In this document: piece after piece, positions 4,107 to 25,162 of the stretch | Layout: every line of letters begins with the position of its first letter | Position numbering within the stretch: position 1 is the first letter of the stretch | Source of the DNA: Virgibacillus sp. NKC19-16 | GTDB lineage: Bacteria > Bacillota > Bacilli > Bacillales > Amphibacillaceae | NCBI RefSeq assembly: GCF_021560035.1 | Contig: NZ_CP074373.1 | Coordinates: forward strand, 3,282,001 to 3,346,000 | Direction of reading: 5' to 3' | Length of the DNA stretch: 64,000 nt | The notes under the pieces: model-generated | Seen by the model: only the letters and a program-made list of their open reading frames with translations | What the model was told of the DNA's origin: nothing | The model's database searches: none | Program-made: the position numbers and the translations under genes

Positions 4107-6800
4107 TCATTGATCCAAATCACTAACTATTATCTCATCAAAGGTGAATACATTACTGCTGTCGTAATCAAAGTTGATAACACTCATTAGCGCTCTGCCT
4201 GTTTGATTTTCCAATTGTTCATCTGCGGAGAGTCTATGAACTATATCCCATGTTTTAGGTTCCTCCACATCATCTTTCCAAAGACGAACCATTAACTCAT
4301 TATCCTGTTTACGCAATCGTATCCAATGCCACTCATCGGTCATATTCGTATCAATTCGATTAAAGTTATTGGAACTGCTGTCATATCTACCTCTAAGAAT
4401 CAATTCATCCGTGTTGAGATTCAACTCAATACCAAAACCGTTGACAGGCATCGAACTGCCTGATGAGAAGGCATCAGACTGAAGCCATAGTCTCAACCTT
4501 TGATTATTGCCTGTCTCATTAGCTCGGAAACGAATCAGCAATTCACTATTTTCCGTCTCTTCCATATCTGGAGTGATACGCCCGTAAGCACTGCCATTAC
4601 CCTGTTGACGGTTATCCAGTTCAATTTGTCCGGCGTTGTCCTGTATCGTATATACTACACCATCAGGGTCCGTCGGCCAGGAATGAAGATTCACAAAATC
4701 AGATGAATCCCAGCTACTTCCGTCTTCACCAATGAATCCTTGATAAAAGGCATAATCTAGCTCTTTCATATAGCTGTCAGCTTGTGGTTCAATAAGGTTA
4801 TAGGCTTCCTCTGAGATCAGACCGCTTTCTGATTGATGGTGAAGCAAATCCAATAAACCATCCAGATGTTTGATAACCTTCTCTGTCTCGTCCTGTTCTT
4901 CAAATTGACTTATTGCAGTCAAGTGAAGTTTTACGGAACGAGCGGTTTCATCATTTGTAAATTCTCCTTCTTCCTCAAAACGATCAACGAGTATTTTCAA
5001 ATTAGCCAAACTTGGTGCTCCAAGTGGAGGTTCCACTTCACCTGAGTCTGTACAGTTATCCAGCGGCAGGCCGGCCAACTCGTTATATCTTGCCTGTTCA
5101 TCAAGCAGGAACGGGATCACCGTCATCATCGGCTGATTCATCGTAACAAATATGCCGTTCTCACTGACCTGTTCGGTTTGCAGTGAAAATAAATCAATAT
5201 GCCGGCTTATTCCTTCTGCTTGTGAAGTATTTATGAGATAGCCGCATGCAGCAGGGTCTAATACTGCCCATTCAGGCGGCTCACGGTTGTCTGCTCCATC
5301 GAGATAGAATGGCTCCTGATTTGCACCATCAGCTGCCCTGCGATCTGGAGCTTCAGTCACAGCCTGTACCACATCATCAAACCGTTCCCGATAAAACCGC
5401 ATTACTGATAATGCTGTTTCCATCTGCATCTCTACCCGGGCTTCCGGTTTTGCTCTGCCTGCCGATTCCGTAATCAAACCTATCCCGTGCCGTAAGCCGA
5501 GCATATTTGACAGCACGCGCTCGTTCCCATTTGTGCTTGAATTAGGGGAACCATATATACCCGTGGTAAAACCTGCTTCCTCAACATCCGGCATCAAATA
5601 ATCCTGTACCATTTCTTTACTTAATTCCCGTAATGGTTGGTCAATATTTAAGTTACGAGGCCATACCATCTCCATTTCCGGATTAGCTCCACTTGGACGT
5701 TCATGCGCATCAATTGTAATATCCGGTTGGAATTGGTTCATGACTTCTGCTACTACCTGTATTTCAGGTGTAGCCAGGTTGAGATGGTCACGATTGTTAT
5801 CGACGCCCCAGCCGTTTCCTCTTTGATTAGCTTCACGCCCATCCGGGTTTGGTGTAGGCATGAAAAGGATTGTTGTTTCACTCATCTGCTCCAACAATTC
5901 CGGATCATCAGTAAAGGCGAGGTCCCGCAGCATTTGCAATGCCATTTCTTGTCCAGCAGGCTCATTACCATGTGGTGTTCCTTGTATTAATATATTTCGC
6001 CCGCTTGCAATTTCTTCATCTGATGGGGGTTCCGGATAACCAACACGTACCAAATATATTGGCCGTCCCTCTACTGAAGTTCCCTCCTCAGTGTATGTGA
6101 CCCTATCTGATTCTGCCGCAACTGTTTCTAGGAAAGCCGCTTCTTCAGAAGGTACTGTCCACCCATTTCCGTTTCTCTGCTCAAAACCCGTCTCCCTTGA
6201 ATTCGGGTCAAACTCATTTTGAATAAATACCTTCTCACCGGTATCTCCCACTTCTGCTTGTGTCTGAGGTCCATCCGGACATGACACTGATTCTTCTCCA
6301 GCTTCACCCAGTAATTGTAATCCGGCTGTACGCGAAATGGCTAACATCGGGATTGAAGCAGATGTAGACATGGAAGACGGAAAAGCATCACAACCGTCGT
6401 TGTCCGTACGCTGATCGTTAAATATCAGTACCGCCGAGTAATTCTTGCCCTCTATATTGTCCATCTTCTCAACGAAAAGACAGTCACCACGTTCTACTAA
6501 AGCCACATTACCCTCATCCGTAGCTTCGGGTACTGGATCGCTGTTATTACAAGCTGCACCAACGTAAACAACCCGTCCATCAATAGGGCCGACTTCCTCA
6601 ATTCGCGGCGTATGCTCTGACCAGAAATAGTCAAAAGATGTACCAGCTAATGGACCGCTTGCAATTTCAGATACATATCCCTCTCTGTCACTATCACCTC
6701 CCTCCCCGGACACTGTCATTCCCGTTAAGGTCTCCATCATCACAAAAAGGAATAAAATCAACATCAAAGAAATGCTTTTTTTCCAATTGAGCTTTTGCAT
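4107..6800 (-). CDS. Secreted M14 metallocarboxypeptidase with PA, FIMAH and LamG-like modules
   Basis: This is an 897-residue exported protein with a signal peptide in the first 30 residues. Domains in order: a PA-type domain (about 72-178, with LVERGDCLF), an M14 zinc carboxypeptidase (about 205-480), a helical FIMAH module (about 598-681) and a jelly-roll, laminin-G-like domain (about 696-895). The M14 site looks complete: zinc ligands H277 and E280 in HGNE, H366 in DAHE, the substrate-binding N336-R337 pair and the catalytic glutamate E445 in LITESAG. FIMAH is internal here, whereas in most neighbours it ends the protein. The catalytic part is a close paralogue of the 23588-25162 product, which lacks both PA and LamG. 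The ribosome site is GGGAGGGG. It probably trims peptides outside the cell; the substrate is not established. Confidence 0.9.
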   Translation of the reverse strand: MQKLNWKKSISLMLILFLFVMMETLTGMTVSGEGGDSDREGYVSEIASGPLAGTSFDYFWSEHTPRIEEVGPIDGRVVYVGAACNNSDPVPEATDEGNVALVERGDCLFVEKMDNIEGKNYSAVLIFNDQRTDNDGCDAFPSSMSTSASIPMLAISRTAGLQLLGEAGEESVSCPDGPQTQAEVGDTGEKVFIQNEFDPNSRETGFEQRNGNGWTVPSEEAAFLETVAAESDRVTYTEEGTSVEGRPIYLVRVGYPEPPSDEEIASGRNILIQGTPHGNEPAGQEMALQMLRDLAFTDDPELLEQMSETTILFMPTPNPDGREANQRGNGWGVDNNRDHLNLATPEIQVVAEVMNQFQPDITIDAHERPSGANPEMEMVWPRNLNIDQPLRELSKEMVQDYLMPDVEEAGFTTGIYGSPNSSTNGNERVLSNMLGLRHGIGLITESAGRAKPEARVEMQMETALSVMRFYRERFDDVVQAVTEAPDRRAADGANQEPFYLDGADNREPPEWAVLDPAACGYLINTSQAEGISRHIDLFSLQTEQVSENGIFVTMNQPMMTVIPFLLDEQARYNELAGLPLDNCTDSGEVEPPLGAPSLANLKILVDRFEEEGEFTNDETARSVKLHLTAISQFEEQDETEKVIKHLDGLLDLLHHQSESGLISEEAYNLIEPQADSYMKELDYAFYQGFIGEDGSSWDSSDFVNLHSWPTDPDGVVYTIQDNAGQIELDNRQQGNGSAYGRITPDMEETENSELLIRFRANETGNNQRLRLWLQSDAFSSGSSMPVNGFGIELNLNTDELILRGRYDSSSNNFNRIDTNMTDEWHWIRLRKQDNELMVRLWKDDVEEPKTWDIVHRLSADEQLENQTGRALMSVINFDYDSSNVFTFDEIIVSDLDQ

Positions 6801-6891
6801 TACCGTTCCCCTCCCTTAAAATTTTTCTAATATCTATTGAAGATCAGCTCAGTGGTAATCTATTGATATAATCGTTATAAAATCTAATATT

Positions 6892-7072
6892 CTATCGCCA
6901 TTCCTCAAGCAAACGATCAGCATGCATGTTCAAATTGCTAGAAGCCTGTTCCGTAATTTGGGGTTTGTCTTGGATCTCCAGTATCCCCGGCAAAACCGGT
7001 TACGGGAACAGTTGTGATCAAAAGAATGATTAGAAATACAGAAGTTAACTGTCTCATCGATCTTTTTGGCAT
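6892..7072 (-). pseudogene. Relic of a FIMAH-family secreted protein (internal deletion)
   Basis: A good ribosome site (AAAGGAGA) precedes ATG at 7070-7072, which opens a signal peptide (MPKRSMRQLTS...VPVTGFAG) like those of the neighbours. The frame stops after about 44 codons. Directly after it, in another frame, come the last residues of a FIMAH domain (HADRLLEEWR) ending in a stop at 6892-6894. The simplest reading is that an almost complete deletion removed the enzyme body and joined the signal sequence to the domain tail. No catalytic domain is left. Confidence 0.72.
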
Positions 7073-7091
7073 AATGATTCTCCTTTACTTT

Positions 7092-7134
7092 AAAAAAATC
7101 CCCCTGTAACAAATCATTTTTATCTGTTACAGGG
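7092..7134 (-). terminator. Intrinsic terminator of the D-aminoacylase gene
   Basis: CCCTGTAACA (7102-7111) pairs with TGTTACAGGG (7125-7134) and, on the minus strand, is followed by a run of seven T. It separates the D-aminoacylase gene from the relic downstream. Confidence 0.88.
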
Positions 7135-7190
7135 AGTTACCCTTACATCAAAGTTGTTTTCTACTATTAATTTTAGGAAAGTATTGACAC

Positions 7191-10067
7191 TTACTCCCAG
7201 ATCTCAAGAAGTGCCTCAGCATGGTCCGTAAGCACAGTGGCCACTTCTTCAGAAATCTCTCCATTTGTCCCCAGGAAATCGAGTAATTGCTTAAAGCTAT
7301 TTAAGTGTCGAATAGCTTTATTCATGGAACCGGTAGATTCATAGTGACCAACAGAAGTTAAGTGCGTTTGCAAGTTTCTGACTGTTTCATCACTTTCTAT
7401 ATCGCCATCACTCCTGAATTCATCTACGAGCGTCTTCATGTCTTCAATACTTCTAGGCTCTGCTGACTCACCCAAAAATCCTCTTATTTCATCCTCCCCT
7501 TCGATTTGAATTGTGACGGTTGGACGCTGATCTGTTATCATCGTCTCATTTTCATCGATTATCACCATGAATGTCCGCTCTTCACTTTCATTTAGCAGGC
7601 CACGGCCGGTAAAGCTCGTCCAACCATCTGCAACTTGAATTTTTCCAAATCCGGTTGCAGCAAAATTTAAGTCTGAACTTTCATCTTGAACAGTGAATGA
7701 TCCATCAGCTTTTATATCCGCTTCATCCTGTTGAAGTGCAAATGCCATTTCCGCTTCTGCCAAAGAATCCGGTTCATCCATATCATAGAGTTCACCTTCT
7801 TCCTCTATGTCAACAGATTCCGTGGTCATAGGACGACTTGGCATGTTTGCAGCTCGCTTCAACGCCTTACCAGGATGCAAACCGGTTAATTCTCCATCTT
7901 CCAGGGCAAATTCGCCATTGACCAAAACATATTCGATTCCATCTGCATATTGTTTCGGTTCATCGAATGTTGCATTGTCAATGACGGTTTCCGGATCAAA
8001 AATCGTTATATCAGCTGCCATCCCTTCAGCAATAAATCCTCGATCCGTCATTCCAATAATGGTTGCCGGTAATCCGGTCATTTTTTGAACCATCGTTTCC
8101 CAATCTGTAAGTCCCTCTTCTCTTACATACTGACCAAGTGCTCGCGGCTGTGTTCCGTATCTTCTTGGATGGGTACTGTTTGATGTCGTAGCACCTCCAT
8201 CTGATGCAATTGCCGTCGTCGGGTTATCAAGAATCCGTTTAAAATCATCCTCGTGACCGAAATTATAAATGGATCTCAAACTTCCTTCTGTCTCTAAAAT
8301 CCTCATGGTTGTTTCACCTGGCGTCAATTCTTCTTCCTCTCCATCGTCTTGTGGCGCAGGTATTTCCTGTACCATGTCCCACTCCTCTGGTTCTTCGTTC
8401 TCATCATTCCATAGGCGTACCATCAGCTGATCATCTTCAACACGAATTCTCAATGATTGCCAATCGTTTGTCATATTGGCGTCCACACTGCCATAATTCG
8501 TTGAACTCCCATCCTCTCTTCCATATAAAACAAGATTGTCATTTCCAAGATGTAATTCAATACCATAACCATTTACAGGGAAAGAACTTCCTGAACTAAA
8601 ATCATCAGCTTGTAGCCAGAATCTGATTCGCTGGTTGTTTCCTGTTTCACTGACTTTAAAGCGCATGTACGCTTCACTATTGTTCTCCAATTCATCCATT
8701 ACAGGTGTGACTTTTCCATAAGCACTCGCGTTACCTTGCATTCTTTCATCGATTTCAATTTTTCCGACATCTTCTTCTACAAGATAGCTTACCGCATTGG
8801 ATGGATAGGAAAATAATTGTTCGAATGATTCGGATTCCCATTCCTCACTACTGGTAAAATCATAGTCAAACGCCGTATTTCCATCTAAATCCTGAATGTT
8901 TAATTCATCAATATCAAAAGTTATGTCACTGTCATAGTCAAAGTTGAGAAAACCTAACAGTGCTTGTCCATTTCTGTCATAATTGAAACCTTCTTCCATA
9001 TAATCAGCAAGTGTCATTTGCCTGGTAGGAAAATATACATCTTCCGGTCCTTCTACCCGGCTATGCATAATTTCCTCAATTTCCTCTGCAATTTGCGGAC
9101 GAAGCTCTGGATCAGCAAATCGTTCCAGCATCGCATCCCATCCTCCATCTTCTACCCATGGGGGAACAATTGCCGTTAGGCCTGTCTGACTGCGAAGGTA
9201 TGGGTAAACGTCAGCTGTAGCATAGGTTCCACGTGCATTTGCTTCTTCGATCAGCCCAACTGTTTCAGCGGATTTACCCCAGTTATCCGGCCCCATTACC
9301 TTCATATGTGTAATATGAGGAGCGAGCCCTGCTTCTTCTCCAATTTCAATTGTTTCAGCTGTTGCTTCTACAACTTCATTGTTTTCATTACGAATGTGAT
9401 GCGGGAAATTTGTGCGCCATTCGCTTGCAGCACTTACGACATCAATTACTTCCTCCGTTGTTGAATAATAAGCTGGTCTGTAGAATAGCCCGGCAGAAAC
9501 ACCATAAGCTCCATCTTCCATTGCCTCTGTAACTAACCCTTGCATTTCACTGATTTCTGCTTCCGTTGCCCGTCGATCCTCTTCACCAACTACTTCTTCC
9601 CAGACGGAATTAAATCCAATATAAGCCCCAATGTTTATTCCCAGGCCATCTTCTTCAAGCGCAAAACGCTCCTGAAGATCTGTAGGCCCTCCTCCATCAA
9701 CATTTAACAGCTCCGTCGTAACACCTTGCGTAAGGGAACTTTGCGCTTCTTGAAGAGCTGACGTTGATGCGTGACTGTGCAGATCAATAAATCCGGGTGC
9801 TACAAACAGCCCATTTGCATCCACTTCTTTTTCAGCAGCATAATTCTCCAAATTGCCGATACGAGCGATAATTCCATCTCGTATTCCGATGTCTGCATCA
9901 TATTTCGGGAGACCAGAACCATCAATGACCGTCCCATTTCTGATAATTTTGTCAAAACCCATATCACCCTGAGACTGCGCAGCATTTCCAACGGAAGCCT
10001 GTAAAAACGTACCTAATAGTAATACAACCATTACCGCCATTATCAACGTTTGACGTAGCCTAAACAT
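7191..10067 (-). CDS. Secreted N-acyl-D-amino-acid deacylase with inserted LamG-like module and C-terminal FIMAH
   Basis: An exported 958-residue amidohydrolase of the D-aminoacylase type. AGGAGG lies 1 nt from the first ATG (10073) but 7 nt from the ATG at 10067, so I chose the latter. After the signal peptide comes the barrel start with FIDLHSHAS (metal ligands H97, H99), ITHMK near 253, ASDGG near 622 and a beta-sandwich end (ADITIFDPE). About residues 367-576 interrupt the barrel with a LamG-like domain homologous to the C-terminal module of the 4107-6800 product, but with its last strands placed first (see findings). After the barrel come a beta-rich segment of unknown type (about 780-865) and FIMAH (874-958). 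Predicted action: release of D-amino acids from N-acyl derivatives outside the cell. Confidence 0.87.
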   Translation of the reverse strand: MFRLRQTLIMAVMVVLLLGTFLQASVGNAAQSQGDMGFDKIIRNGTVIDGSGLPKYDADIGIRDGIIARIGNLENYAAEKEVDANGLFVAPGFIDLHSHASTSALQEAQSSLTQGVTTELLNVDGGGPTDLQERFALEEDGLGINIGAYIGFNSVWEEVVGEEDRRATEAEISEMQGLVTEAMEDGAYGVSAGLFYRPAYYSTTEEVIDVVSAASEWRTNFPHHIRNENNEVVEATAETIEIGEEAGLAPHITHMKVMGPDNWGKSAETVGLIEEANARGTYATADVYPYLRSQTGLTAIVPPWVEDGGWDAMLERFADPELRPQIAEEIEEIMHSRVEGPEDVYFPTRQMTLADYMEEGFNYDRNGQALLGFLNFDYDSDITFDIDELNIQDLDGNTAFDYDFTSSEEWESESFEQLFSYPSNAVSYLVEEDVGKIEIDERMQGNASAYGKVTPVMDELENNSEAYMRFKVSETGNNQRIRFWLQADDFSSGSSFPVNGYGIELHLGNDNLVLYGREDGSSTNYGSVDANMTNDWQSLRIRVEDDQLMVRLWNDENEEPEEWDMVQEIPAPQDDGEEEELTPGETTMRILETEGSLRSIYNFGHEDDFKRILDNPTTAIASDGGATTSNSTHPRRYGTQPRALGQYVREEGLTDWETMVQKMTGLPATIIGMTDRGFIAEGMAADITIFDPETVIDNATFDEPKQYADGIEYVLVNGEFALEDGELTGLHPGKALKRAANMPSRPMTTESVDIEEEGELYDMDEPDSLAEAEMAFALQQDEADIKADGSFTVQDESSDLNFAATGFGKIQVADGWTSFTGRGLLNESEERTFMVIIDENETMITDQRPTVTIQIEGEDEIRGFLGESAEPRSIEDMKTLVDEFRSDGDIESDETVRNLQTHLTSVGHYESTGSMNKAIRHLNSFKQLLDFLGTNGEISEEVATVLTDHAEALLEIWE

Positions 10068-10202
10068 GATCATTCCTCCTTCTCATTATCAGGACTGATT
10101 CGTTGTCTGCTATATAGCAGAGCAGCCTTTCACCTGCCCTGCCCATTTATAGGTACCTTTCAATAGATTGCTTCTACTCACGCCCTATTCCTACAGTCCA
10201 TT

Positions 10203-12227
10203 CTACTCCCATTCCTCCAATAAAACATCAGCAGCCGCCATCAACTCCTCATAAGCATCATCCGAAATCAATCCATTATCGTTCTGATACTCAACCAGCA
10301 ACTTAAATCCATCCAGATGTTCTATTGCTTTATCCATGTTATCTGTATTTTCATAGTGTTCTAGCGCCGCTAAGTGAGTTTCCACATGACGGATGGCGCC
10401 TTCATCATTAAATTCGCCGTCATCTTTTAATTCATCCACTAGATATTGCAAATAGGCAACGGTTGACTCGTTCGGTGGCAAATCACCGGATGAAATACCT
10501 ATAGCTTTTCCTTCTCTACTCGAATCTGCGGCACCCATGTAATGCCCACTTTCAAGGTCGAGTAATAAACTGTTGACGTTTCCGATTTCACCTGGGTTTG
10601 ATTCCCATTCATGCCCCATTTGCTCGAGTTGCTCCCTAACATCTGTCGGTATGCCTGACTCCCAGCGGATACTCGGATATTCATTGCTATAGATTCTTGG
10701 TTCTTCAATGGCATCCTTAAGCTCCATATCATACCCAATCACATTGACAATCGTTTGCAAGACGGATGTGATAATGGTAGTTCCACCCGGTGAGCCAACT
10801 GTCATGAAAGGTTCACCATCTTCTAAAACAATCGTCGGTGTCATGCTGCTTAACGGACGCTTGTTTGGCTGAACTTCATTTGCCCCGCCTGGAACCGCGT
10901 CAAAATCCGTTAATTCATTATTCAGCATAATGCCGTAATCTGGTACCATTATCCCTGATCCGAATACTTGTTCAATCGTTGTTGTATAGGAAACAAGATT
11001 CCCTTCACTATCAGCAACAGTAAAATGTGTTGTTTCGCCATCTGTTTTGTCATTAACTTTTTCACTTACCTCAGATGGCTCTCCTTCCTGGTAATCCCAA
11101 GGGTTTCCTGGCTGAACATTATCATTTGCCTGATTTGGATCAATCAATTCAACCCTGCTATCAATATAATCAGGATGAAGCAGCCCTTCAGCTGGTACAT
11201 CGACAAATTCAGGATCGCCCATATAGGCACCTCTATCCGCATAGGCGAGGTGCATCACTTCGGCCATATGATGATATTTTTCAGCTGATTGAACGCCATA
11301 TTGTGTCAGGTCCATTTGTTCAAACATTTCCAGCATTTGCAGCAAGGTCAGACCGCCGGAACTTGGCGGGGCCATGGATGCGATATCATATCCCCTGTAA
11401 TCACCCCATACCGGAGCTTCATGGGTCACATCATAGTTGCTGAGATCATCCGCTGTCATACTGCCATCACGTTTTTCGACCTCTTCGGCAAGCGCTTCAC
11501 CAATTTCTCCATCGTAAAACGCATCGGTCCCCTGCTCGCTAATCAGCCTGAACGTATCAGCCAAATCCTCTTGAACAAGCAGTTCACCCTCTTCTAATGG
11601 GTCGCCATCAGGCAGGAAAACTTCACTTGCTGCCGTATTTGACAGTTTTTCCTCATTACTAGCAATGTCGTCAGCAAGCACCCAGTTCACTTCAACTCCT
11701 TCTTCCGCCATTTCAATGGAAGGTTCCAGTAGCTCGTCCATGGAACGTGTGCCCCATTGATCAAGAGCGGTTTCAAGGCCTTTTAGTGTTCCTGGTACAC
11801 CAACTGATTTACCACTGCGGACCCGTTCCTGAAAAGGAATCACATTACCGTCTTCATCAAGAAACATATCGGGCGTTGCGCCTGCTGGGGCCCGCTCCCT
11901 GCTGTTAATGGCCGACACTTCTTCCGTCTCGGCATCATAGTACATCAGAAAGCCACCACCGCCGATTCCAGACATCATTGGTTCATTAACATTTAAGGCA
12001 AATTGAATCGCAACAGCCGCATCAACGGCATTGCCGCCTTCCTTTAACACATCTGCTCCAACCTCAGAGGCTAATGGATGTGAGGTCACGACCATACCGT
12101 AGTCGCCCTCTGCCGTTTGTTCATCTTTTATGCCCTGTGCACTAGCAGTTAATCCTGCTGGTGTCAAAATATTGATGATTAGTAACAGTGACATAAAGAT
12201 TGATAATATTATAGATTTATTCTTCAC
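10203..12227 (-). CDS. ggt: Secreted gamma-glutamyltransferase with C-terminal FIMAH domain
   Basis: A 674-residue gamma-glutamyltranspeptidase, an N-terminal nucleophile hydrolase that cleaves or transfers gamma-glutamyl groups (glutathione, poly-gamma-glutamate, gamma-glutamyl peptides). A signal peptide occupies about residues 1-30. The autoprocessing/catalytic threonine is T399 in GETTHFTV, the glycine pair of the oxyanion region is in VGSPGG (478-482), and the MSGIGGGGF motif of the large subunit is at 85-93. The enzyme proper ends near residue 575; FIMAH fills about 590-674, so it is longer than ordinary Bacillus GGT. Start is GTG (12225-12227) with AAAGGGG upstream. It probably acts as a secreted or surface enzyme in gamma-glutamyl peptide use. 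Confidence 0.93.
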   Translation of the reverse strand: MKNKSIILSIFMSLLLIINILTPAGLTASAQGIKDEQTAEGDYGMVVTSHPLASEVGADVLKEGGNAVDAAVAIQFALNVNEPMMSGIGGGGFLMYYDAETEEVSAINSRERAPAGATPDMFLDEDGNVIPFQERVRSGKSVGVPGTLKGLETALDQWGTRSMDELLEPSIEMAEEGVEVNWVLADDIASNEEKLSNTAASEVFLPDGDPLEEGELLVQEDLADTFRLISEQGTDAFYDGEIGEALAEEVEKRDGSMTADDLSNYDVTHEAPVWGDYRGYDIASMAPPSSGGLTLLQMLEMFEQMDLTQYGVQSAEKYHHMAEVMHLAYADRGAYMGDPEFVDVPAEGLLHPDYIDSRVELIDPNQANDNVQPGNPWDYQEGEPSEVSEKVNDKTDGETTHFTVADSEGNLVSYTTTIEQVFGSGIMVPDYGIMLNNELTDFDAVPGGANEVQPNKRPLSSMTPTIVLEDGEPFMTVGSPGGTTIITSVLQTIVNVIGYDMELKDAIEEPRIYSNEYPSIRWESGIPTDVREQLEQMGHEWESNPGEIGNVNSLLLDLESGHYMGAADSSREGKAIGISSGDLPPNESTVAYLQYLVDELKDDGEFNDEGAIRHVETHLAALEHYENTDNMDKAIEHLDGFKLLVEYQNDNGLISDDAYEELMAAADVLLEEWE

Positions 12228-16118: not shown

Positions 16119-19019
16119 TTAACTGGCGGTAGCTTCTGTCTCCTGCTCTTGTTCAAAGGCAATGTCAGAGATGGCAGAATCTATCAAGTCACCAACCATT
16201 TGAACTTTTTCAGGACTTACCCGGTCAATGGTATCTTCGGGGGAGTGATACCAAGGTTCTATACCAGCTTGGCCCGGTTCTGTCCCTCGTTCCATCCAGA
16301 TGAAGAGTGCAGCATCGATTCCTGCGTTATGGAAGTGAACGTGATCAGATCTGCCTAATTGATGACGTGTCAATCTGTTGTCATCGAGTCCTAATCTTTC
16401 GGCGGCTAAATCGACGGACTCCCAAACTGTATTCGATTCCCCGTCAACCGTACTGACATGGAGCTGGGATGCCGGCTCCCAATCTGTTCCAACCATATCC
16501 AGATTAAAATTAGCAGCACTTCTATTAATCTCTTCATCTGATAATTGACTGACATAGTGCTCGGAACCTAAGAGACCTGCCTCTTCCGCACCAAAGGCCA
16601 CAAAACGGATCTCTTTGTTCGCCGGCTCGTCCCGCGTTACCTTGGCCAGTTCCAGAAGAGCGGCGGTTCCCGATCCATTGTCATTTGCTCCCGGTGATCC
16701 CGGCACACTATCATAGTGGGCAGTGACATACACAATTTCAGGGTCCTCAATGCCCTCAGCTTCTTTGACTGCTATCACGTTTTGCGATTGAGCACCATTA
16801 GGAATATCAAATGTTTGTGTAGACGCGTTGTACCCAAGCTTTTCAAATTCAGCTTTTATATACTCGGAAGCTTCCTCTTCTCCCTCACTTCCGGGAGCAC
16901 GTGGTCCGATGTCTTCACTCAAATGCCGAATATGGGCCATTGCCCTGTCTGAATCAAAAGCAAATGCTTCCCATTTCTCAATTAACATATCAGCTTGGGA
17001 TTGCAGCAGATTATAAGCTTCAACTGAGATCAGCTCATTATTTTGCTGATGATCTAATAAATCATTAAATCCTTGCATATGCTTGATGACTTTTTCCACT
17101 GCTTCTTGTACTTCATAATGGTTTACAGCGGTCAAATGACGATTCAGCGCACGTGGAGCAGTATCACTTTCGAACTCTCCTTCGTCCTTAAGCTGATCGA
17201 CAAGTGTTTTAATGTCTTCTGCATTTTCAGGTATTTCAGCTTCATAATTTTCCCCATGGCCAAATTCATAATGGCCTTCAATGGTTACCGGTAGTTTGCC
17301 ACCCGGGTTTGCTCCATAAATGACATCGACAGCAGCTTCCCATGAAACCGGTACTGCCGATCCCCATCTTTCTATCGCATATGTTGCGATGTGTGCATCC
17401 ACATCCGGGTATTCCTTGATGTCATATGGAAGGCCTAAAGATATCGATACCACCGGTTTCTCTGTTTCCTCAAGTGCGTTTACTAATTGACTTTGCCCTT
17501 GATCGAGTTCATCGGCCGAGAAAGTTGAAACAATGACGCGATCTGCCTGTTCAGCTTGCTGGACAACTTCATTAATTTCTTCAGCAGAAGGATTTTCAGA
17601 TGTTACATCGTAATCCACGTTCCCGTTTGTTTTCCTTTGAACATCCTCAGCTATATCTTCAATATAATAACTTTGGTTGTATATCTCCGGACCAACGACA
17701 AAAGTAGATTCATTGGATTCTGGATCAAAAGGCAATACATCATCATTTTTCACCAGTGTCATCGAGTCCTGTGCCATATTTTTAGCCAATTCTTTATGGG
17801 ATTCCGTATTCACAACGTCTGTAGCTTCTTCCGGATCAACATAACGATTATCAAAAAGTCCATACATGACTTTTTTGGCTAAAATCCGCTCAAGAGATTC
17901 GTCAACGCGTTCTTGCGTGAGTTCACCAGACTCATAGGCTGATAGAAGCGCTTCAAATGATTCTTTCTGTTCATCAAGTGAGCCGGTAGCCATGACAATA
18001 TCGGCACCAGCCTGAATGGTCATCACGGCTGCTTCCCCTGCTCCCCAATTATCTTTTATCGCTTGCATCGACATGGCGTCTGTTACAATAAGTCCGTTAA
18101 AACCCATCTCTTCACGAAGCAGTCCAGTTAAAACGTCTTCTGACAATGTTGCTGGAAGTTCCGGATCAATAGCTTCAATGATGACATGAGACGTCATAAT
18201 CGAGTCGGCTCCAGCATCGATGGCAGCTTGAAACGGTGGAAGATGAACCTCTTCCAATGTCTCTCGGTCATAACCGACAGAAGGGAGATCGTAGTGTGAA
18301 TCGTCACTCGTATCACCATGCCCCGGAAAATGTTTTGGTGTCGATAATACGCCATTTTCTTGATACCCTTCTACTTGTGCAACCGTCATGTCTGAGACAA
18401 GCTCTGTATCTTCGCCAAATGATCGTACACCGATCACCGGGTTATTCGGGTTGGTGTTCACATCAGCAAGGGGGGAATAATTCCAGTTAAAACCTGTTGC
18501 TTTCATTTCCCTTGCAGTGACACTTGCCATATCCTCTGCTGCCTCTAAGTCTCTCGTCGCAGCGATTCCCATCTGACGAGGAAATGCAGTTGCATCGGTC
18601 ACATGCTGGTTGACACCATATTCAAGGTCAGCCGTTGAAAATAATGGAATACCCATATTTGTTTCGGCTGCCCATTCCTGAAGTTGATTATTGTATGCGG
18701 CTGTCGTGCTAGCATCGCGATTTCCGTAAATAATGACCGATCCGGCTTTGTATTCTTGAATAAGTTCTTTGGTGTCTTCATTTGGCATGTTTTGTTCGTT
18801 ATCATGGGTGGATGGCATCACGAGCTGCCCAATTTTTTCTTCCGTGTCCATTTGTGTGATCATTTGCTGGATCATCTCTTGATTCGCGTTATTCTCCCGC
18901 TCTTCATCTGGTTTCATGTTTTGCCCGGCAAATGCTGATGGTGTAAGAGCTGTAATTGGCGTTGTAAGGAGAAGAACGAACACGAACATGTAACTTAGTA
19001 GCTGAACCCGTTTCTTCAT
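16119..19019 (-). CDS. Secreted fusion: GH3 beta-N-acetylglucosaminidase (NagZ) - FIMAH - M28 aminopeptidase
   Basis: A 966-residue exported protein with two complete enzymes. Residues about 45-590 are a NagZ-type GH3 with the C-terminal sandwich domain: KHFPGHGDT at 229-237, the acid/base Asp-His pair in DDSH (D240, H242) and the nucleophile D314 in VTDAMSM. Residues about 600-683 are FIMAH. Residues about 690-955 are an M28 zinc aminopeptidase with ligands H768, D780, E813, D841 and H925 and base E812. NagZ removes GlcNAc from muropeptides; M28 enzymes cut N-terminal residues. FIMAH sits exactly at the joint, as if the M28 part had been added after an originally C-terminal FIMAH. The hydrolase at 14332-15813 follows on the same strand, with a hairpin between. 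Confidence 0.92.
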   Translation of the reverse strand: MKKRVQLLSYMFVFVLLLTTPITALTPSAFAGQNMKPDEERENNANQEMIQQMITQMDTEEKIGQLVMPSTHDNEQNMPNEDTKELIQEYKAGSVIIYGNRDASTTAAYNNQLQEWAAETNMGIPLFSTADLEYGVNQHVTDATAFPRQMGIAATRDLEAAEDMASVTAREMKATGFNWNYSPLADVNTNPNNPVIGVRSFGEDTELVSDMTVAQVEGYQENGVLSTPKHFPGHGDTSDDSHYDLPSVGYDRETLEEVHLPPFQAAIDAGADSIMTSHVIIEAIDPELPATLSEDVLTGLLREEMGFNGLIVTDAMSMQAIKDNWGAGEAAVMTIQAGADIVMATGSLDEQKESFEALLSAYESGELTQERVDESLERILAKKVMYGLFDNRYVDPEEATDVVNTESHKELAKNMAQDSMTLVKNDDVLPFDPESNESTFVVGPEIYNQSYYIEDIAEDVQRKTNGNVDYDVTSENPSAEEINEVVQQAEQADRVIVSTFSADELDQGQSQLVNALEETEKPVVSISLGLPYDIKEYPDVDAHIATYAIERWGSAVPVSWEAAVDVIYGANPGGKLPVTIEGHYEFGHGENYEAEIPENAEDIKTLVDQLKDEGEFESDTAPRALNRHLTAVNHYEVQEAVEKVIKHMQGFNDLLDHQQNNELISVEAYNLLQSQADMLIEKWEAFAFDSDRAMAHIRHLSEDIGPRAPGSEGEEEASEYIKAEFEKLGYNASTQTFDIPNGAQSQNVIAVKEAEGIEDPEIVYVTAHYDSVPGSPGANDNGSGTAALLELAKVTRDEPANKEIRFVAFGAEEAGLLGSEHYVSQLSDEEINRSAANFNLDMVGTDWEPASQLHVSTVDGESNTVWESVDLAAERLGLDDNRLTRHQLGRSDHVHFHNAGIDAALFIWMERGTEPGQAGIEPWYHSPEDTIDRVSPEKVQMVGDLIDSAISDIAFEQEQETEATAS

Positions 19020-19102: not shown

Positions 19103-19118
19103 CCTAGATTAAAATTTA

Positions 19119-19706
19119 TTATTCTTCATCATCAGTAACTTGTTGTGCAGTAAATGTCCATTCCAGATTTAAAGAATCTCCCTGGAATTCATTCTGATCT
19201 TCTCCGTTATCAACGAAGGTAAATTCGACAACAAGGTCATCGCTGGTACCGGCTTCAAGTCCATCTTCACCAAGCGTAGGAATAAATACTTCTTCATTAA
19301 CAGCTTCAGGTGACATGTCTCTCAGATCAGCCAATGTTGTTTCGTAAATTACTTCATTCAGCTGATCCGCATTGTATAAAAACTCTACTTGAATATGGTT
19401 TCCGAAATCATCCACATTGTCACTTTCTGCATCCGTTACGGAATAATCCGTTTCCAGGAGAACCTTGTTCATATCCACGGTACCGTTATTTTGCAGTTCA
19501 AAATCGCGAGTCATGGAATCACCGGGTTGAATGTTTTCAACATTAATCACCTCCGTCGGTTCAACACCTAAATCAAGCGTTCCAGCCGCAAACGTGTTGT
19601 TCGTTGTCTCACTATCACTGAAATATGCAAATGTTCCTCCACCTATTAACGTTAGACCAAGTGCAGCCGTCATAACGCCCATGCCTAATTGCTTTTTAAT
19701 ACCCAT
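19119..19706 (-). CDS. TasA/CalY-family secreted fibre-type protein, copy 1
   Basis: A 195-residue protein with the SipW-type N-terminus of the TasA/camelysin (peptidase M73) family: a short charged start, a hydrophobic run, then GGGTFAYFSDSETTNNTFAAG, where the signal peptidase normally cuts. The rest is one beta-rich TasA domain (VENIQPGDSMTRDFELQNNGTVD). In Bacillus such proteins form surface fibres that hold biofilms together; CalY is also a surface metalloprotease in B. cereus. No sipW or tapA is in the window. From codon about 14 to three codons before the stop it is almost base-for-base identical to 22921-23508, while signal start and flanks differ. It is embedded among FIMAH enzymes. 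Confidence 0.9.
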   Translation of the reverse strand: MGIKKQLGMGVMTAALGLTLIGGGTFAYFSDSETTNNTFAAGTLDLGVEPTEVINVENIQPGDSMTRDFELQNNGTVDMNKVLLETDYSVTDAESDNVDDFGNHIQVEFLYNADQLNEVIYETTLADLRDMSPEAVNEEVFIPTLGEDGLEAGTSDDLVVEFTFVDNGEDQNEFQGDSLNLEWTFTAQQVTDDEE

Positions 19707-19815
19707 ATAAATTCCCCCTCATCATAGATTAATAGATTCTCGGTATTCTCCGAGTCAGATAGGACAAGTGACTTCTTGATCCATCTATTCGATCTCCCCA
19801 ATTTATAGGTGGCCT

Positions 19816-21219
19816 TTACTGCCACCTTCCAATTAAATAATCAGCGTCATCCGTTAGCCTGTCATACGCCTTTTCCGAAATTAATTCTTCATTTTCCTGG
19901 TGATCAAGTAAAGACTTAAAGCTCCTAATATGTTTAACTACTTTGTCAGCTTTTTCATTTTCTGCGTAATGGCTTATTGCGGCTAAATGTACCTTTAAGG
20001 AACGAACGGCATCCTCAGTTTCGAACTCTCCTTCTTTGAAGAAACGATCAATGAGTGTTTCCGTATCAGATAGATTTGAAGTCCAATACTTAGGCAGGTT
20101 CAAGAAATCATCACCGTTAAGGTCATCAATCGAGTTATCCGCCATACGGGTGACAATACCCCATAACCCGTTCTCCACGCGATCTATCAATTGCTGATCA
20201 TATCCATATTCAGGTTGTTGTCCAGGCATTTCAAAAAGAACCGTTGCGGTTCCATTGAGAGCAAATGAAGACCTAGCCTGACCAGGCAAATCGCGCTCCT
20301 CTGGGTGTAAATAACGAGCCACACCGGTCTCCTCACTGTCTGAAAATTCCTTTACACCAAGGGCAGCAGCCAACGAGTAGCGTTTGGATTTGTCTTGATC
20401 CAATTTTGGCCAATCATCGTATTTGGAGCTATCATCTGGTCCCAGTGGGGGATAGTCTATTGCAATTGTGACATCCTCACCAGTTTCATTGAGCTCAGGA
20501 GTTCCCATGTGATGAAGGTCGACAAAAGCTTCCACTTCCCCGAACTCATCCTTCAAATCCAGATAAAGATCTCTAAGGATTTGGGATTCATTTGTTAGAA
20601 AAAAACCAGGGTCAGCACCCGTACCAGGTAAATCCTCCAGCACAGGTTCGTAGTTCAAATCCGGGTTAAAATCCCGGTTGATGTCAAAACCGCCGTTCCT
20701 TTCACTATAGTACCAGGCGGGATCAGCACCTTCGAGTTGTGGGTAAGTCGCTATGACATCATCCCAAGAGAAAATGTTTTGCCGTTGAGTTATCTCGGCA
20801 CCATCAACATTAAGCCGAGGAATAGCAACTATTGTAACCCCATCACGAACTGCTTGGGCAAAGGAGCTATCGCTAGTTCCAAGAGTCTCGAACATTTGCA
20901 TAAGTGCTTCAGGGCCACTCTTCTCATTACCGTGTATATTAGAGTTGATCAGCAACACTTGGTCGCCCGTCCCCACACGAGCAGTGTAGATTTCACGTCC
21001 TTCGCGTGAATGACCGATAACCTCGACTTCAACCTTTCCGGCACTGGCCTCCTCAATTTCATTCAGTTTTTGGCCTAGTTCCTCATAGGTCATAAAATGG
21101 TCATCCGAGCTTTTCTTATTATCTCCGTCTTGACTTGCTAAACCAGTAAGTGGGTTTATAGTCAGTGCCAATAATAAGATCGCAAAGGGCAGAATTTTTC
21201 TCCAAATATTATCTTTCAT
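19816..21219 (-). CDS. Secreted M14 zinc carboxypeptidase with C-terminal FIMAH (A)
   Basis: A 467-residue exported enzyme. The upstream GTG at 21228 overlaps the ribosome site; ATG at 21219 has AGAGGT 7 nt away, so I start there. The M14 site is complete: HGNE (H96, E99), N181-R182 in FDINRDF, H236 or H237 in VDLHHMG and catalytic E330 in LFEMPG. FIMAH covers about 385-467 and ends in GRWQ. It differs clearly from the M14 enzymes at 4107 and 23588 and has no PA or LamG module. It probably trims peptides or wall-stem peptides outside the cell; specificity is unknown. The terminal half of FIMAH matches that of its neighbours closely. Confidence 0.9.
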   Translation of the reverse strand: MKDNIWRKILPFAILLLALTINPLTGLASQDGDNKKSSDDHFMTYEELGQKLNEIEEASAGKVEVEVIGHSREGREIYTARVGTGDQVLLINSNIHGNEKSGPEALMQMFETLGTSDSSFAQAVRDGVTIVAIPRLNVDGAEITQRQNIFSWDDVIATYPQLEGADPAWYYSERNGGFDINRDFNPDLNYEPVLEDLPGTGADPGFFLTNESQILRDLYLDLKDEFGEVEAFVDLHHMGTPELNETGEDVTIAIDYPPLGPDDSSKYDDWPKLDQDKSKRYSLAAALGVKEFSDSEETGVARYLHPEERDLPGQARSSFALNGTATVLFEMPGQQPEYGYDQQLIDRVENGLWGIVTRMADNSIDDLNGDDFLNLPKYWTSNLSDTETLIDRFFKEGEFETEDAVRSLKVHLAAISHYAENEKADKVVKHIRSFKSLLDHQENEELISEKAYDRLTDDADYLIGRWQ

Positions 21220-21263
21220 GATATTCACCTCTCAATGGATTCTAGTACATCAAGGTTATGAAA

Positions 21264-22637
21264 CTATTGCCACCTTTCAACCAAATAATCAGCATATGCG
21301 TTAAGGGTTTGGTACGGCTCATCAGCTATCAGCTCATTTTCATTCTGATAGTCCAGTAATGGTATAAAGCTGTTCATATGTTTAGCAGCCTTTTCCATTA
21401 ATCCATTTTCCTCGAAGTGACTTACAGCAGTTGAATGTACACCCAAGTCCTGAGCGGCATTATTGTCTACTTTTCCCTCATCCTCATAAAAATTGACAAG
21501 CCCATTGATATCTTCTGCAGATGTTTCAAATAGTACTGCTGGCTGCTCGGGAATTGAGATTGTGCCATCATAATCTGTGCTATAACCTGTTAGCGGGGGA
21601 CTTGGTATTTCATCCCAGCGATCAGGATCAATGTTGTACATTTCTTCTGAAGCAAGCCCCGACAAAAAGGCATGAGTAGCAATGACATTCTGCTGAATCA
21701 AAGGTTCCCGCTCACCATTCAAAAATTCACCCGAGGTTTCCAAGAAAGCAGCAGGATTGCTATGCCCCTCAGGATTAATACCTTGATAATTTAGCCCAAG
21801 CATCATACCAGACATTACCGCGCCTCGGTAATCAACTTCATGCGTATCATTTGGACCCACTCTATACTGGTTAACTGTAAATTGGTGATAGGGGTCTACA
21901 GCATCGTATACATTAACCATCGCTTGGCGGCCCAGATCTGCGTACTCCCCTCCTTCAATATCGGAAAGGGTAGGGCCCTCTGGTGCTAACGTGATACCAA
22001 GTGACATCGTTACGGGAATATCTGTATCATAAAACTCTTTATCCCCTTGATGGTGGATATCAAGTGCAAAATCAGGCTTAAGTTCAGCCCAAAATGTGTA
22101 ATAACCAAGTGTCTCAATTGCTTCAAAATTACCTTCAACCCAGTCTCTGTTTAAATCGACAGACTCCCCGGGCTCCCCTGTTTCCGGGTCAATGATTCTC
22201 GTTCCTCTTTCATACCTTTCAGCGCCATCCGGATTATACATTGGAATAAAATATATTGTTAACTCTTCCATCATCTCTTTATAAGAGTTGTCTTTTTCCT
22301 CTATTAAATTTTCGATAATGCGCAACGTTGCATTCGTTCCATAAGGCTCATCACCATGAATACGTCCTTGAACCCAGATCTTCTTGTCACCGTTGCCTAT
22401 CTTTGCAACATAAAGATCGCGCCCTGCCTCACTTCTTCCTTCTTCAATACCGATCTCTCTTAGTGTAAATACATCAAGCTTACCGTCACCTTGTTCTTCC
22501 AGGTTCTCAAGTGTACCAATCATTTCATCATACCCAATGACATCTGAAGTGTCAGTGGGTGCCGCGTTGACCATCCCAGCAAAGGAAAAAGCAAAAAAGA
22601 TCGATGCTGCAAGTAAGAATAGTCGTTTTTTTAACAT
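21264..22637 (-). CDS. Secreted M14 zinc carboxypeptidase with C-terminal FIMAH (B)
   Basis: A 457-residue exported enzyme (signal peptide ends near AAPTD, residue 26). M14 landmarks: HGDE (H94, E97), N163-R164 in DLNRDW, H195/H196 in LDIHHQG, and E300 in FLETSG as probable catalytic glutamate. FIMAH fills about 376-457. It lies 44 bp upstream of the 21219 start on the same strand, so the two M14 genes may be one transcript. A signal but no lipobox or sortase motif is present, so attachment to the surface, if any, would have to come from FIMAH or other contacts. Substrate is unknown. Confidence 0.9.
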   Translation of the reverse strand: MLKKRLFLLAASIFFAFSFAGMVNAAPTDTSDVIGYDEMIGTLENLEEQGDGKLDVFTLREIGIEEGRSEAGRDLYVAKIGNGDKKIWVQGRIHGDEPYGTNATLRIIENLIEEKDNSYKEMMEELTIYFIPMYNPDGAERYERGTRIIDPETGEPGESVDLNRDWVEGNFEAIETLGYYTFWAELKPDFALDIHHQGDKEFYDTDIPVTMSLGITLAPEGPTLSDIEGGEYADLGRQAMVNVYDAVDPYHQFTVNQYRVGPNDTHEVDYRGAVMSGMMLGLNYQGINPEGHSNPAAFLETSGEFLNGEREPLIQQNVIATHAFLSGLASEEMYNIDPDRWDEIPSPPLTGYSTDYDGTISIPEQPAVLFETSAEDINGLVNFYEDEGKVDNNAAQDLGVHSTAVSHFEENGLMEKAAKHMNSFIPLLDYQNENELIADEPYQTLNAYADYLVERWQ

Positions 22638-22786
22638 TTTTCCACTCCTTTGGAATTACCTACTTATGATTAATAAGGGTTACTTTTATGCATCTCGTTT
22701 CGTTGTTATTCTGACCAAAGCTTAACGCTCGTTTTACCTTTGCGTTATTCTTTATCATCTGAATGACATAAGTCTTATTGCCATTG

Positions 22787-22817
22787 CCCCATGGCAGTCA
22801 TTATACTGCCACAGGGG
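22787..22817. other. Strong hairpin between TasA copy 2 and M14 (B)
   Basis: TGGCAGT (22792-22798) and ACTGCCA (22805-22811) are flanked by CCCC and GGGG, extending the stem with small bulges. No T-run follows on either strand, so it may be an RNA-stabilising or processing hairpin rather than a terminator. The rest of 22638-22920 holds nothing I can name. Confidence 0.4.
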
Positions 22818-22920
22818 GTGCACATTGCTTATAAACTCATGAGATCAGAAAAAGAGAATATCCCACGTTGAAGTTGCAACACTTCTATCAATCTCTCAAT
22901 CTTTCTTCTAGGTCACTCCT

Positions 22921-23508
22921 TTAGCTTTCATCATCAGTAACTTGTTGTGCAGTAAATGTCCATTCCAGATTTAAAGAATCTCCCTGGAATTCATTCTGAT
23001 CTTCTCCGTTATCAACGAAGGTAAATTCGACAACAAGGTCATCGCTGGTACCGGCTTCAAGTCCATCTTCACCAAGCGTAGGAATAAATACTTCTTCATT
23101 AACAGCTTCAGGTGACATGTCTCTCAGATCAGCCAATGTTGTTTCGTAAATTACTTCATTCAGCTGATCCGCATTGTATAAAAACTCTACTTGAATATGG
23201 TTTCCGAAATCATCCACATTGTCACTTTCTGCATCCGTTACGGAATAATCCGTTTCCAGGAGAACCTTGTTCATATCCACGGTACCGTTATTTTGCAGTT
23301 CAAAATCGCGAGTCATGGAATCACCGGGTTGAATGTTTTCAACATTAATCACCTCCGTCGGTTCAACACCTAAATCAAGCGTTCCAGCCGCAAACGTGTT
23401 GTTCGTTGTCTCACTATCGCTGAAATATGCAAACGTTCCTCCACCTATTAACGTTAGACCAAGTGCAGCCGAGGCAATCCCCATACCTACTTGTTTTTTT
23501 AAACCCAT
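22921..23508 (-). CDS. TasA/CalY-family secreted fibre-type protein, copy 2
   Basis: A 195-residue paralogue of the 19119-19706 product. The proteins differ only in a few signal-peptide residues (GLKKQVGMGIAS here against GIKKQLGMGVMT) and in the last residue. At the DNA level I find only two differences over about 540 bp, both near the signal-peptide end, while the first 14 codons and the flanking DNA are unlike. That pattern points to recent gene conversion. SipW-type signal and TasA beta domain are as in copy 1. Its ribosome site is GAGGAGG. It lies between FIMAH enzymes. Confidence 0.9.
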   Translation of the reverse strand: MGLKKQVGMGIASAALGLTLIGGGTFAYFSDSETTNNTFAAGTLDLGVEPTEVINVENIQPGDSMTRDFELQNNGTVDMNKVLLETDYSVTDAESDNVDDFGNHIQVEFLYNADQLNEVIYETTLADLRDMSPEAVNEEVFIPTLGEDGLEAGTSDDLVVEFTFVDNGEDQNEFQGDSLNLEWTFTAQQVTDDES

Positions 23509-23587
23509 TTAAATTCCTCCTCATTTTTTATCTGAATAACTGTTTCATGAATGAAAAATCCTATTTAAATGTCTAATCTCCACGTAA

Positions 23588-25162
23588 TTAGCTAGCATCA
23601 TCCATCACCCTGCTAGAATCTAAGCCAACCTCCCACTTATCAAGCAAATAATCAGCATAGGTGCCAAGATCTTCATAGGCCTTTTCAGAAATTACGTCAT
23701 TATCTTTCTGATGGTCGAGCAATGTGTTAAAACTATTCATGTGTTTTAAAACTTTCTCGCTTTCTTCCTGCTTTTCGAAACGATCTACTGCAGTCAAATG
23801 CATTTTCAAGGCACGAGCATCACTAGCATCTGAGAATGCTTCCTCGTCTTCAAAATGCTCAACCAATGATTTCATATTCGTTGCAGTTCCCACATCCGTA
23901 CTATCATATAAAGCTAAACCTTCAACCTCATTGTAGGTAGCGCGCTCGTCAAGCAAAAATGGCAAGACCGTCATCATCGGTTGGCTCATCGAAGCAAATA
24001 CACCATTACCATCTACCTCTTCGGTTTGCAGTGAGAATAAAGCCATATGTTGGCTCATTTCCTCAGCCTGTGTTTCGCTAAGCAAATATCCACTCGGTTT
24101 CTTTTCCAGTACTGTCGTCGGGTCCCAATTATCTGCCCCGTCTAAATAGAACGGCTGGGATTGATCTGCTCCCGCCTCTGCTTGACGCTCCGGTGCACCG
24201 GTCATGACTGCTGTGACGTCTTCAAATCGATCACGGTAAAATGTTAGCACCGATTCGACAGCGCGTTTTTGAGCTTCAACCCGGTATGTTGGCTCTTGCT
24301 CGCCAGCAGTTTCGGTTAGTACGCCCATACCATTGCGTAATCCCAGCATGTTACGCATAATACGTTCGTCACCACCACCTGCTCCACCTGGGGATCCATA
24401 CAATCCTGTGGAAAAGCCAGCATCCTCTACAGCTGGAAACAAGTAATCCTCAACCATCTCTTGATTTAATGCCTGCAGTTCATCATCTACATTAAGGTTA
24501 CGTGGCCAGAGCAATTCTATATCCGGATTTCCAGTAGCGCGAGGGCGCTCATGCCCATCCACCGTAATATCAGGATTGAACTGATCCAGGACTTCTGCTA
24601 TCGTCTGCACCTCAAGCGTACTCAAACTTAGATGCTGGCGATTAATATCTATCCCTGCCGCATTACTGCGTGTATTTGCTTCCCTGCCATCTGGGTTCGC
24701 TGTCGGAATGAACAGTATCGTCGCATCACTAAGTTGTTCTAAAACTTGCGGATCATCCGTAAACGCAAGATCCCTCAATAACTGCAAGGCCATCTCCCTT
24801 GGTGCGTTTTCATTACCATGCTGTGTTCCAATGACTAGCATATTCCGTCCCTCGGCAATGTCCTCATCGGAAGGGGGTTCCGGAAAACCCACGCGCACCA
24901 AGTGCAGTGGCCTACCTTCTTCCGTCGTACCAACTTGTGAATAAGTAACCCGATCCGACGACTCCGATACCTCTTCTAAGAATTCCAATTCCTCTTCATG
25001 GGTTGTCCACCCATCTCCCTCACGCTCCTCAAATCCCGTTGTCGGCGGTTGTGAAGCGCTATCATTTTGCTGAGTCGCTAGCCCTGTCATTGGAACCATG
25101 GTCATAAACAACACTAAAATAAGGACTTGAGATAAAATTCTTGGCCAACTTTTTCTTTTCAT
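23588..25162 (-). CDS. Secreted M14 metallocarboxypeptidase with FIMAH near the C-terminus
   Basis: A 524-residue exported enzyme, first of the minus-strand cluster. Active-site residues: HGNE (H115, E118), N174-R175 in IDINRQ, H204 in DGHE and E284 in LTETAG. FIMAH covers about 428-511, followed by a short tail (EVGLDSS...). It is the closest relative of the 4107-6800 product: long blocks such as FYLDGADN, PFLLDE and RDLAFTDDP are shared, but this copy lacks the PA and LamG modules. The ribosome site is AAGGAGG. The long AT-rich region upstream could hold the promoter for this end of the cluster. Confidence 0.9.
   Translation of the reverse strand: MKRKSWPRILSQVLILVLFMTMVPMTGLATQQNDSASQPPTTGFEEREGDGWTTHEEELEFLEEVSESSDRVTYSQVGTTEEGRPLHLVRVGFPEPPSDEDIAEGRNMLVIGTQHGNENAPREMALQLLRDLAFTDDPQVLEQLSDATILFIPTANPDGREANTRSNAAGIDINRQHLSLSTLEVQTIAEVLDQFNPDITVDGHERPRATGNPDIELLWPRNLNVDDELQALNQEMVEDYLFPAVEDAGFSTGLYGSPGGAGGGDERIMRNMLGLRNGMGVLTETAGEQEPTYRVEAQKRAVESVLTFYRDRFEDVTAVMTGAPERQAEAGADQSQPFYLDGADNWDPTTVLEKKPSGYLLSETQAEEMSQHMALFSLQTEEVDGNGVFASMSQPMMTVLPFLLDERATYNEVEGLALYDSTDVGTATNMKSLVEHFEDEEAFSDASDARALKMHLTAVDRFEKQEESEKVLKHMNSFNTLLDHQKDNDVISEKAYEDLGTYADYLLDKWEVGLDSSRVMDDAS

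Follow-up and report, generated by a model that had tools for sequence, protein, structure and literature searches.

Tagged exoenzymes and a dedicated TasA lineage

The stretch of DNA analysed here (the window; 64,000 nucleotides, G000:C1:3282001-3346000) belongs to the 3.83 Mb single-contig genome of Virgibacillus sp. NKC19-16. Its minus strand carries a cluster (4107-25162) in which secreted hydrolases of unrelated folds, each with one FIMAH domain (PF22888), are encoded together with two TasA/CalY-like fibre proteins (PF12389). In many salt-loving relatives of Bacillus, dozens of unrelated enzymes bearing this tag are encoded beside a specialised TasA, which suggests from sequence that the enzymes may be hung on fibres. 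The association joins one FIMAH subtype (type I) to one lineage of TasA paralogues (clade A). We propose that type I FIMAH serves as a docking tag by which exoenzymes are retained on the dedicated TasA fibre, or on something that exists only with it, and give this reading a probability of roughly 0.55.

Linkage of FIMAH enzymes with TasA genes

FIMAH and TasA are genetically linked. Among 159 genomes of the family, 68 contained both, 18 FIMAH alone, 17 TasA alone and 56 neither (Fisher p=1.7e-12, with shared ancestry uncorrected). TasA was present in all 34 genomes having at least five FIMAH genes, and its copy number climbed with the number of FIMAH genes. Of the 52 TasA genes in 14 complete or near-complete genomes (six genera), 24 lay at most 5 kb from a FIMAH gene. 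The expectation was a mean of 1.3 (maximum 10 in 2000), obtained from a null model in which FIMAH positions were rotated with their clustering preserved. All 47 TasA-FIMAH pairs within 5 kb in these genomes shared the same strand. Subtilase genes served as a control in the same genomes: by hand comparison of positions, 4 of 75 were located at most 5 kb from TasA, and all four were FIMAH-bearing.

A GTDB scan provided a cleaner test of linkage, since its loci were chosen on similarity to clade A TasA alone and not on FIMAH. At least one FIMAH gene was found within about 8 kb in 67 of 75 GTDB loci, often with several flanking tapA-sipW-tasA on both sides. The genera include Lentibacillus, Virgibacillus, Oceanobacillus, Ornithinibacillus, Cytobacillus, Heyndrickxia, Siminovitchia, Lederbergia, Neobacillus, Gracilibacillus, Natribacillus and Geomicrobium, among others; some of the species also belong to the first genome set. 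A common operon form, FIMAH-tapA-sipW-tasA-FIMAH(n), was observed in Virgibacillus, Oceanobacillus, Lentibacillus, Cytobacillus, Neobacillus and others, and in all loci examined 50 TasA genes had an upstream FIMAH gene ending at most 400 bp away. The preliminary description of this DNA had set as a check whether FIMAH clusters co-occur with TasA-like genes more often than expected, and both the rotation comparison and the GTDB loci support such co-occurrence decisively, shared ancestry being handled by the rotation null and by the label counts on trees given below alone.

A dedicated TasA clade and two FIMAH subtypes

Nearly all FIMAH-linked TasA proteins belong to one clade. When 55 TasA proteins were placed in a tree, 31 linked proteins and 1 unlinked protein made up a single group (99/98), here called clade A, with 1 linked and 22 unlinked proteins outside it (p=4e-13). 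The linkage label changed 3 times on this tree, compared with 17.9 times when labels were shuffled. A quick tree of 141 proteins placed 108 linked and 5 unlinked proteins in a single group (Shimodaira-Hasegawa-like approximate likelihood ratio test, SH-aLRT, 88). Canonical TasA copies outside clade A had no FIMAH genes beside them, apart from a single case in the 55-protein tree.

The FIMAH domains divide in a corresponding way. In a quick domain tree built from few columns, FIMAH domains of TasA clusters and those of TasA-less genomes fell on opposite sides with one change (SH-aLRT 85). Type I was defined by a higher score with a hidden Markov model (HMM) of TasA-cluster domains than with one of TasA-less domains, together with a signature of H, A, E, K, H and L. 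Both models were trained on loci picked by context. The FIMAH domains of the window fall into type I, having been part of the type I training set and thus having helped to define it. All 190 FIMAH domains near TasA in the GTDB loci were type I, with an HMM margin of at least 43 bits, and genomes without clade A TasA carry mainly type II.

Predictions fixed in advance were then compared with further genomes. Type II was predicted for FIMAH-rich genomes, three with no TasA (G469, G342, G528) and two with no clade A TasA known (G034 and G488, the latter judged by the distance of its TasA from FIMAH and not by a tree), and type I for the TasA-adjacent FIMAH of G486, G317 and G507. The prediction held for 46 of 46 domains. 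All 27 domains with no clade A TasA found nearby were type II; one of these is a remote FIMAH from G151, whose genome has both types. All 19 domains adjoining TasA, two of them fragments, were type I.

The subtypes are separated by residue signature rather than by net charge. In the numbering of the enzyme at 14332-15813, type I frequencies are H436 93%, A439 72%, E444 88%, K451 99%, H455 98% and L462 94%. The same letters occur in type II at 0, 0, 0, 9, 26 and 0%, with Q at position 439 in 23 of 23 domains. These residues lie on predicted helices 2 and 3 and are candidates for a contact face. Net charge was considered as a marker and discarded: its mean was -9 for type I in the first set, but it was near 0 to -4 in G317 and G507.

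Many type II FIMAH enzymes were also observed outside the TasA-linked set, some of them clustered (L170 and L179 in G469 and G488; L180-L186 in G034). Because type II enzymes form clusters of their own, they may have a different common partner.

The FIMAH cluster of the window

The cluster contains nine intact FIMAH-enzyme open reading frames (ORFs) and two PF12389 genes, with intergenic gaps of 35-390 bp. Each enzyme has a single full-length FIMAH match of 51.7-85.5 bits (Pfam cut-off 24.8). According to Pfam, the catalytic parts are M14 in four proteins, a D-aminoacylase-like amidohydrolase, gamma-glutamyltranspeptidase (GGT), S13, a beta-lactamase fold, and GH3 joined to M28. The ORF check and Pfam bear out the preliminary description, giving nine intact secreted enzymes of six unrelated folds with a common FIMAH module, and the PF12389 matches given below confirm the two TasA-like fibre-protein genes that it placed among them. 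The genes are as follows, all on the minus strand.

4107..6800 (-): PA domain, M14 carboxypeptidase, FIMAH (residues 599-677) and an unnamed LamG-like module (residues ~690-897); Pfam for the named domains
7191..10073 (-): D-aminoacylase-like amidohydrolase with the LamG-like module of the preceding entry inserted in the catalytic domain (residues ~410-605), FIMAH at residues 876-957; Pfam for the named domains
10203..12227 (-): gamma-glutamyltranspeptidase with C-terminal FIMAH; Pfam
12508..14286 (-): S13 D-Ala-D-Ala carboxypeptidase with C-terminal FIMAH; Pfam
14332..15813 (-): beta-lactamase-fold (PBP4B/AmiE-like) enzyme with C-terminal FIMAH, the reference for type I signature numbering; Pfam
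16119..19019 (-): GH3 (NagZ-like), FIMAH (residues 601-681) and M28 aminopeptidase; Pfam
19119..19706 (-): TasA/CalY-like fibre protein of clade A with SipW-type signal peptide; Pfam, profile search and tree
19816..21228 (-): M14 carboxypeptidase with C-terminal FIMAH; Pfam
21264..22637 (-): M14 carboxypeptidase with C-terminal FIMAH; Pfam
22921..23508 (-): second TasA/CalY-like protein with SipW-type signal peptide; genome profile search
23588..25162 (-): M14 carboxypeptidase with near-C-terminal FIMAH (residues 428-507); Pfam

FIMAH is internal rather than C-terminal in two of these proteins (4107-6800 and 16119-19019). Six places in the genome account for its 20 FIMAH genes, and because nine of these fall within the cluster, the grouping is not a matter of chance.

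The PF12389 matches reach 298 bits for 19119-19706 (Pfam) and 297-298 bits for 22921-23508 (genome search), with a cut-off of 22.5, and both proteins carry the TIGR04088 SipW-type signal peptide (45.9 and 48.6 bits, cut-off 19). They score far under the 450-bit cut-off of the TasA equivalog NF046066 (105.6 and 106.2 bits, the N-terminal part alone matching), so by profile they are classed as TasA/CalY-like proteins and not as TasA orthologues. For PF12389, a camelysin/M73 protease reading was weighed as well; structurally, the closest match is the TasA fibre 8aur. The two genes share 97.3% DNA identity, with about 490 bp identical and all 16 differences confined to the first 90 nucleotides or the last codon, a pattern like that of recent gene conversion of the mature part.

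The genome encodes 11 TasA-like genes, of which five touch FIMAH genes, at 592, 884, 3054, 3301 and 3305 kb. The locus at 882 kb runs FIMAH subtilase, tapA-like, sipW and tasA, with the subtilase gene overlapping the tapA-like ORF as called; that at 591 kb runs FIMAH GH3, tapA-like, tasA and FIMAH GH2.

Predicted structures

In the AlphaFold models, FIMAH folds with confidence into a four-helix bundle, and TasA takes the form of a beta-sandwich. For paired predictions, we chose loci where the FIMAH gene runs in frame into the TasA gene, with stop codons treated as residues. Eight such natural read-throughs were found and two were folded with AlphaFold2. In a Foldseek search, the read-through chain matched two known structures, the TasA fibre 8aur and, at 1.9 A over 88 columns, the bundle at the C-terminus of NnGH92 (7nsn). 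The sequence profile of FIMAH also finds 7nsn (E=3e-6). The NnGH92 bundle belongs to the same domain family and fold, and by sequence it looks like type II and not type I. It faces outward and its authors could assign no function to it; its deletion lowered the melting temperature (Tm) from 60 to 53 C, kept about 80% of activity and halved yeast-wall binding (PMC10167667).

As to the docking of FIMAH to the TasA-like fibre, suggested as a possibility in the preliminary description, the separate folds were good, but no confident complex was obtained from the two single chains (predicted template modelling scores, pTM, of 0.51 and 0.57). These folds include the linker and signal peptide and are without fibre neighbours, which makes them a weak docking test.

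Proposed mechanism and alternative explanations

By homology, ordinary signal peptides would direct the export of the exoenzymes, each of which bears a single four-helix FIMAH bundle, in most cases C-terminal. The clade A TasA paralogue would be exported and processed by SipW and would then polymerise, probably through donor-strand exchange with TapA as the initiator, as is the case in Bacillus subtilis, where SipW processing and TasA donor-strand fibres have been described (PMC9674648). The TasA-like proteins of the window are similar to 8aur in sequence and fold, and their donor-strand fibre is putative. Type I FIMAH would hold the enzymes on clade A fibres, and a mixed array of enzymes would thereby stay attached to the cell or the matrix, with enzymes and products kept near the producer. 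The array encoded in the window would trim peptides and sugars by means of carboxypeptidases, a D-aminoacylase, GGT, a DD-peptidase, a PBP4B/AmiE-like enzyme and a NagZ-like/M28 protein. We infer both the physical docking and this purpose. A specific FIMAH-TasA contact is favoured over mere co-regulation because the FIMAH subtype and the TasA paralogue match; co-regulation with another ligand is the main rival.

A wider formulation describes an unnamed, widespread exoenzyme system of Gram-positive bacteria. Type I FIMAH would act like a dockerin on a specific site of the TasA paralogue, an open-ended donor-strand fibre would be the scaffold on which dozens of different hydrolases are presented, whether on the cell surface or within the matrix, and murein scavengers would be one standard cargo set. 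We place this wider formulation slightly short of even odds.

Several observations weigh against fibre docking. Operon linkage by itself fits co-regulation too, and neither read-through chain gave a confident relative placement of FIMAH and TasA. The genes tapA and sipW are absent from the window cluster and would have to be encoded elsewhere in the genome. In addition, five genomes without PF12389 (G045, G059, G064, G091, G107) each carry a lone type-I-like domain. These five domains were excluded from the type II HMM for resembling type I; since the domain tree places them on the TasA-less side, they look intermediate.

The main alternative is a shared matrix or biofilm regulon alone, with FIMAH binding a wall polymer or exopolysaccharide instead of the fibre. 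The tapA-sipW-tasA genes of B. subtilis are a single matrix operon controlled by SinR (PMC9674648). Type II FIMAH exists without TasA and loss of the NnGH92 bundle halved yeast-wall binding, so the fold can serve elsewhere (PMC10167667); the five lone domains and the lack of docking in the two read-through chains point the same way. By itself, this explanation does not account for why clade A and type I pair while canonical TasA and type II stay apart, and why untagged subtilases are absent beside TasA. We consider it unlikely, though a serious contender.

Docking to TapA or another minor fibre component instead of TasA appears improbable. TapA nucleates the fibre (PMC9674648), and many operons have a tapA-like gene immediately between FIMAH and tasA; however, FIMAH-tasA arrangements without tapA within the stretch occur in the window and in L027, L041, L042, L046, L048, L049, L057, L060 and L064, and the TapA-like proteins carry acidic tails of low complexity and give no more than a weak TIGR04087 match. 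A folding, stability or secretion module without a fibre role would agree with the fall in Tm from 60 to 53 C and in activity to about 80% after deletion of the type II bundle of NnGH92 (PMC10167667). Two subtypes sorted by TasA context would be unexpected for such a general aid, as would one bundle on many unrelated folds, and we regard this role as very improbable. Mere gathering of FIMAH and TasA in secreted-protein gene islands, with no functional link, would suit two multi-copy, clustered families but hardly the clustering-preserving null, the common strand of all pairs, the clade- and subtype-specific match or the distance of untagged subtilases from TasA, and it is given almost no weight.

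Cargo of the FIMAH domain

Fibre docking would involve a wide range of cargo. Within the first 430 residues of 103 FIMAH proteins encoded near TasA, Pfam recognised 54 families, including beta-lactamase fold, GH3, M14, NamZ, S15, nuclease/phosphatase, GH20, GGT, M6, alkaline phosphatase, S8, M28, PL8, GH84 and S13. The same tag is also present on subtilases, GH2, GH101, phosphatases, GDPD and a sugar dehydrogenase, among others. FIMAH was at the very C-terminus in 100 of 110 proteins, and LPxTG was not found in the 110 examined.

Murein scavenging is a real and recurrent theme of this cargo, and not an exclusive one. NagZ-like GH3, PBP4B/AmiE-like, NamZ, S13 and GGT recur as FIMAH proteins inside tapA-sipW-tasA operons. 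An example from Virgibacillus salexigens (L102) has the order NagZ-like GH3, tapA, sipW, tasA, PBP4B/AmiE-like, NamZ and exo/endo-phosphatase. Family membership and gene order underlie the label AmiE-like; among NCBIfam models PBP4B matches best, under its cut-off. A machine that takes apart murein, as the preliminary description had it, is therefore right as to the recurrence of murein enzymes in tasA operons and too narrow as to the many other kinds of enzyme tagged; as the sole purpose, it was ruled out by the cargo survey.

In the same genome as the window, a locus resembling N-acetylmuramic acid (MurNAc) salvage (L020, 2590-2602 kb) encodes a FIMAH NamZ and a FIMAH GH3 (Pfam); neighbours resembling MurQ and a second NamZ were named by eye from sequence. 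Two other FIMAH genes of this genome look broken (L023:3093-4103 and L019:4647-7426; a frameshift inside FIMAH, and a split N-terminus).

Comparison with known systems

The murein-scavenging set of B. subtilis consists of NagZ, AmiE and NamZ, which are not known to be tagged or fibre-linked. Its counterparts recur here as FIMAH proteins within one tapA-sipW-tasA operon (L102). The B. subtilis control genome gave no FIMAH match. The loci described here resemble the B. subtilis tapA-sipW-tasA operon in their SipW-type signal peptides, PF12389 subunit, gene order in many loci and best PDB fold, 8aur (PMC9674648). They differ in adding several tagged exoenzymes and in having a TasA that forms a separate paralogue clade beside canonical copies.

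In Bacillus cereus, TasA and CalY, likewise PF12389-type proteins with several paralogues, form heterofilaments, co-assembling with the help of CapP; the abstract of that study mentions no tagged enzymes (PMC13082335). Here copy number reaches 11 and tracks FIMAH number.

If docking is real, many unrelated enzymes with one small tag would recall the cellulosome. Dockerin, cohesin and scaffoldin had no Pfam match in the window proteins, and the proposed scaffold would be a self-assembling fibre, not a multi-cohesin protein.

The domain is already annotated as FIMAH; the single structural study found to contain it could assign no function. In the open-access literature, we found no paper using FIMAH as a domain name and none connecting TasA operons with tagged enzymes. 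Across Bacillaceae, the genomic data connect a single FIMAH subtype with a single TasA lineage, which makes the function directly testable. Were docking true, TasA-type fibres would be natural enzyme scaffolds and not glue alone, a donor-strand-polymerising counterpart of the cellulosome. It would also offer a ready-made tag for enzyme display on living materials and a possible reason for up to 11 TasA paralogues in these relatives.

Additional observations

The arrangement of an internal FIMAH with M28 recurs beyond the GH3-M28 fusion of the window, as L139 encodes M14-FIMAH-M28, and L150:8788-10917 and L143:11109-13259 have a long M28-like stretch after an internal FIMAH, with TasA immediately downstream in frame.

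A module of about 190-200 amino acids without a Pfam match, for which LamG/jelly-roll is our guess at the fold, is C-terminal in the M14 enzyme (4107-4730, minus strand) and lies inside the catalytic domain of the D-aminoacylase (7191-10073, residues ~366-605). It is inserted in GGT and others too. In the loci examined, every copy belongs to a FIMAH protein, and the module is present in 6 of 61 relatives.

The importer of the window, named in the preliminary description as a murein-peptide importer (dpp-ykf), is actually an Opp-type oligopeptide ATP-binding cassette (ABC) importer, whose sequence tells no substrate. An AimR-family pheromone receptor is encoded at 47321-48409 on the minus strand (NF038310 184 bits, cut-off 70; Pfam AimR 262 bits), with spoIIQ, spoIID and opp genes nearby.

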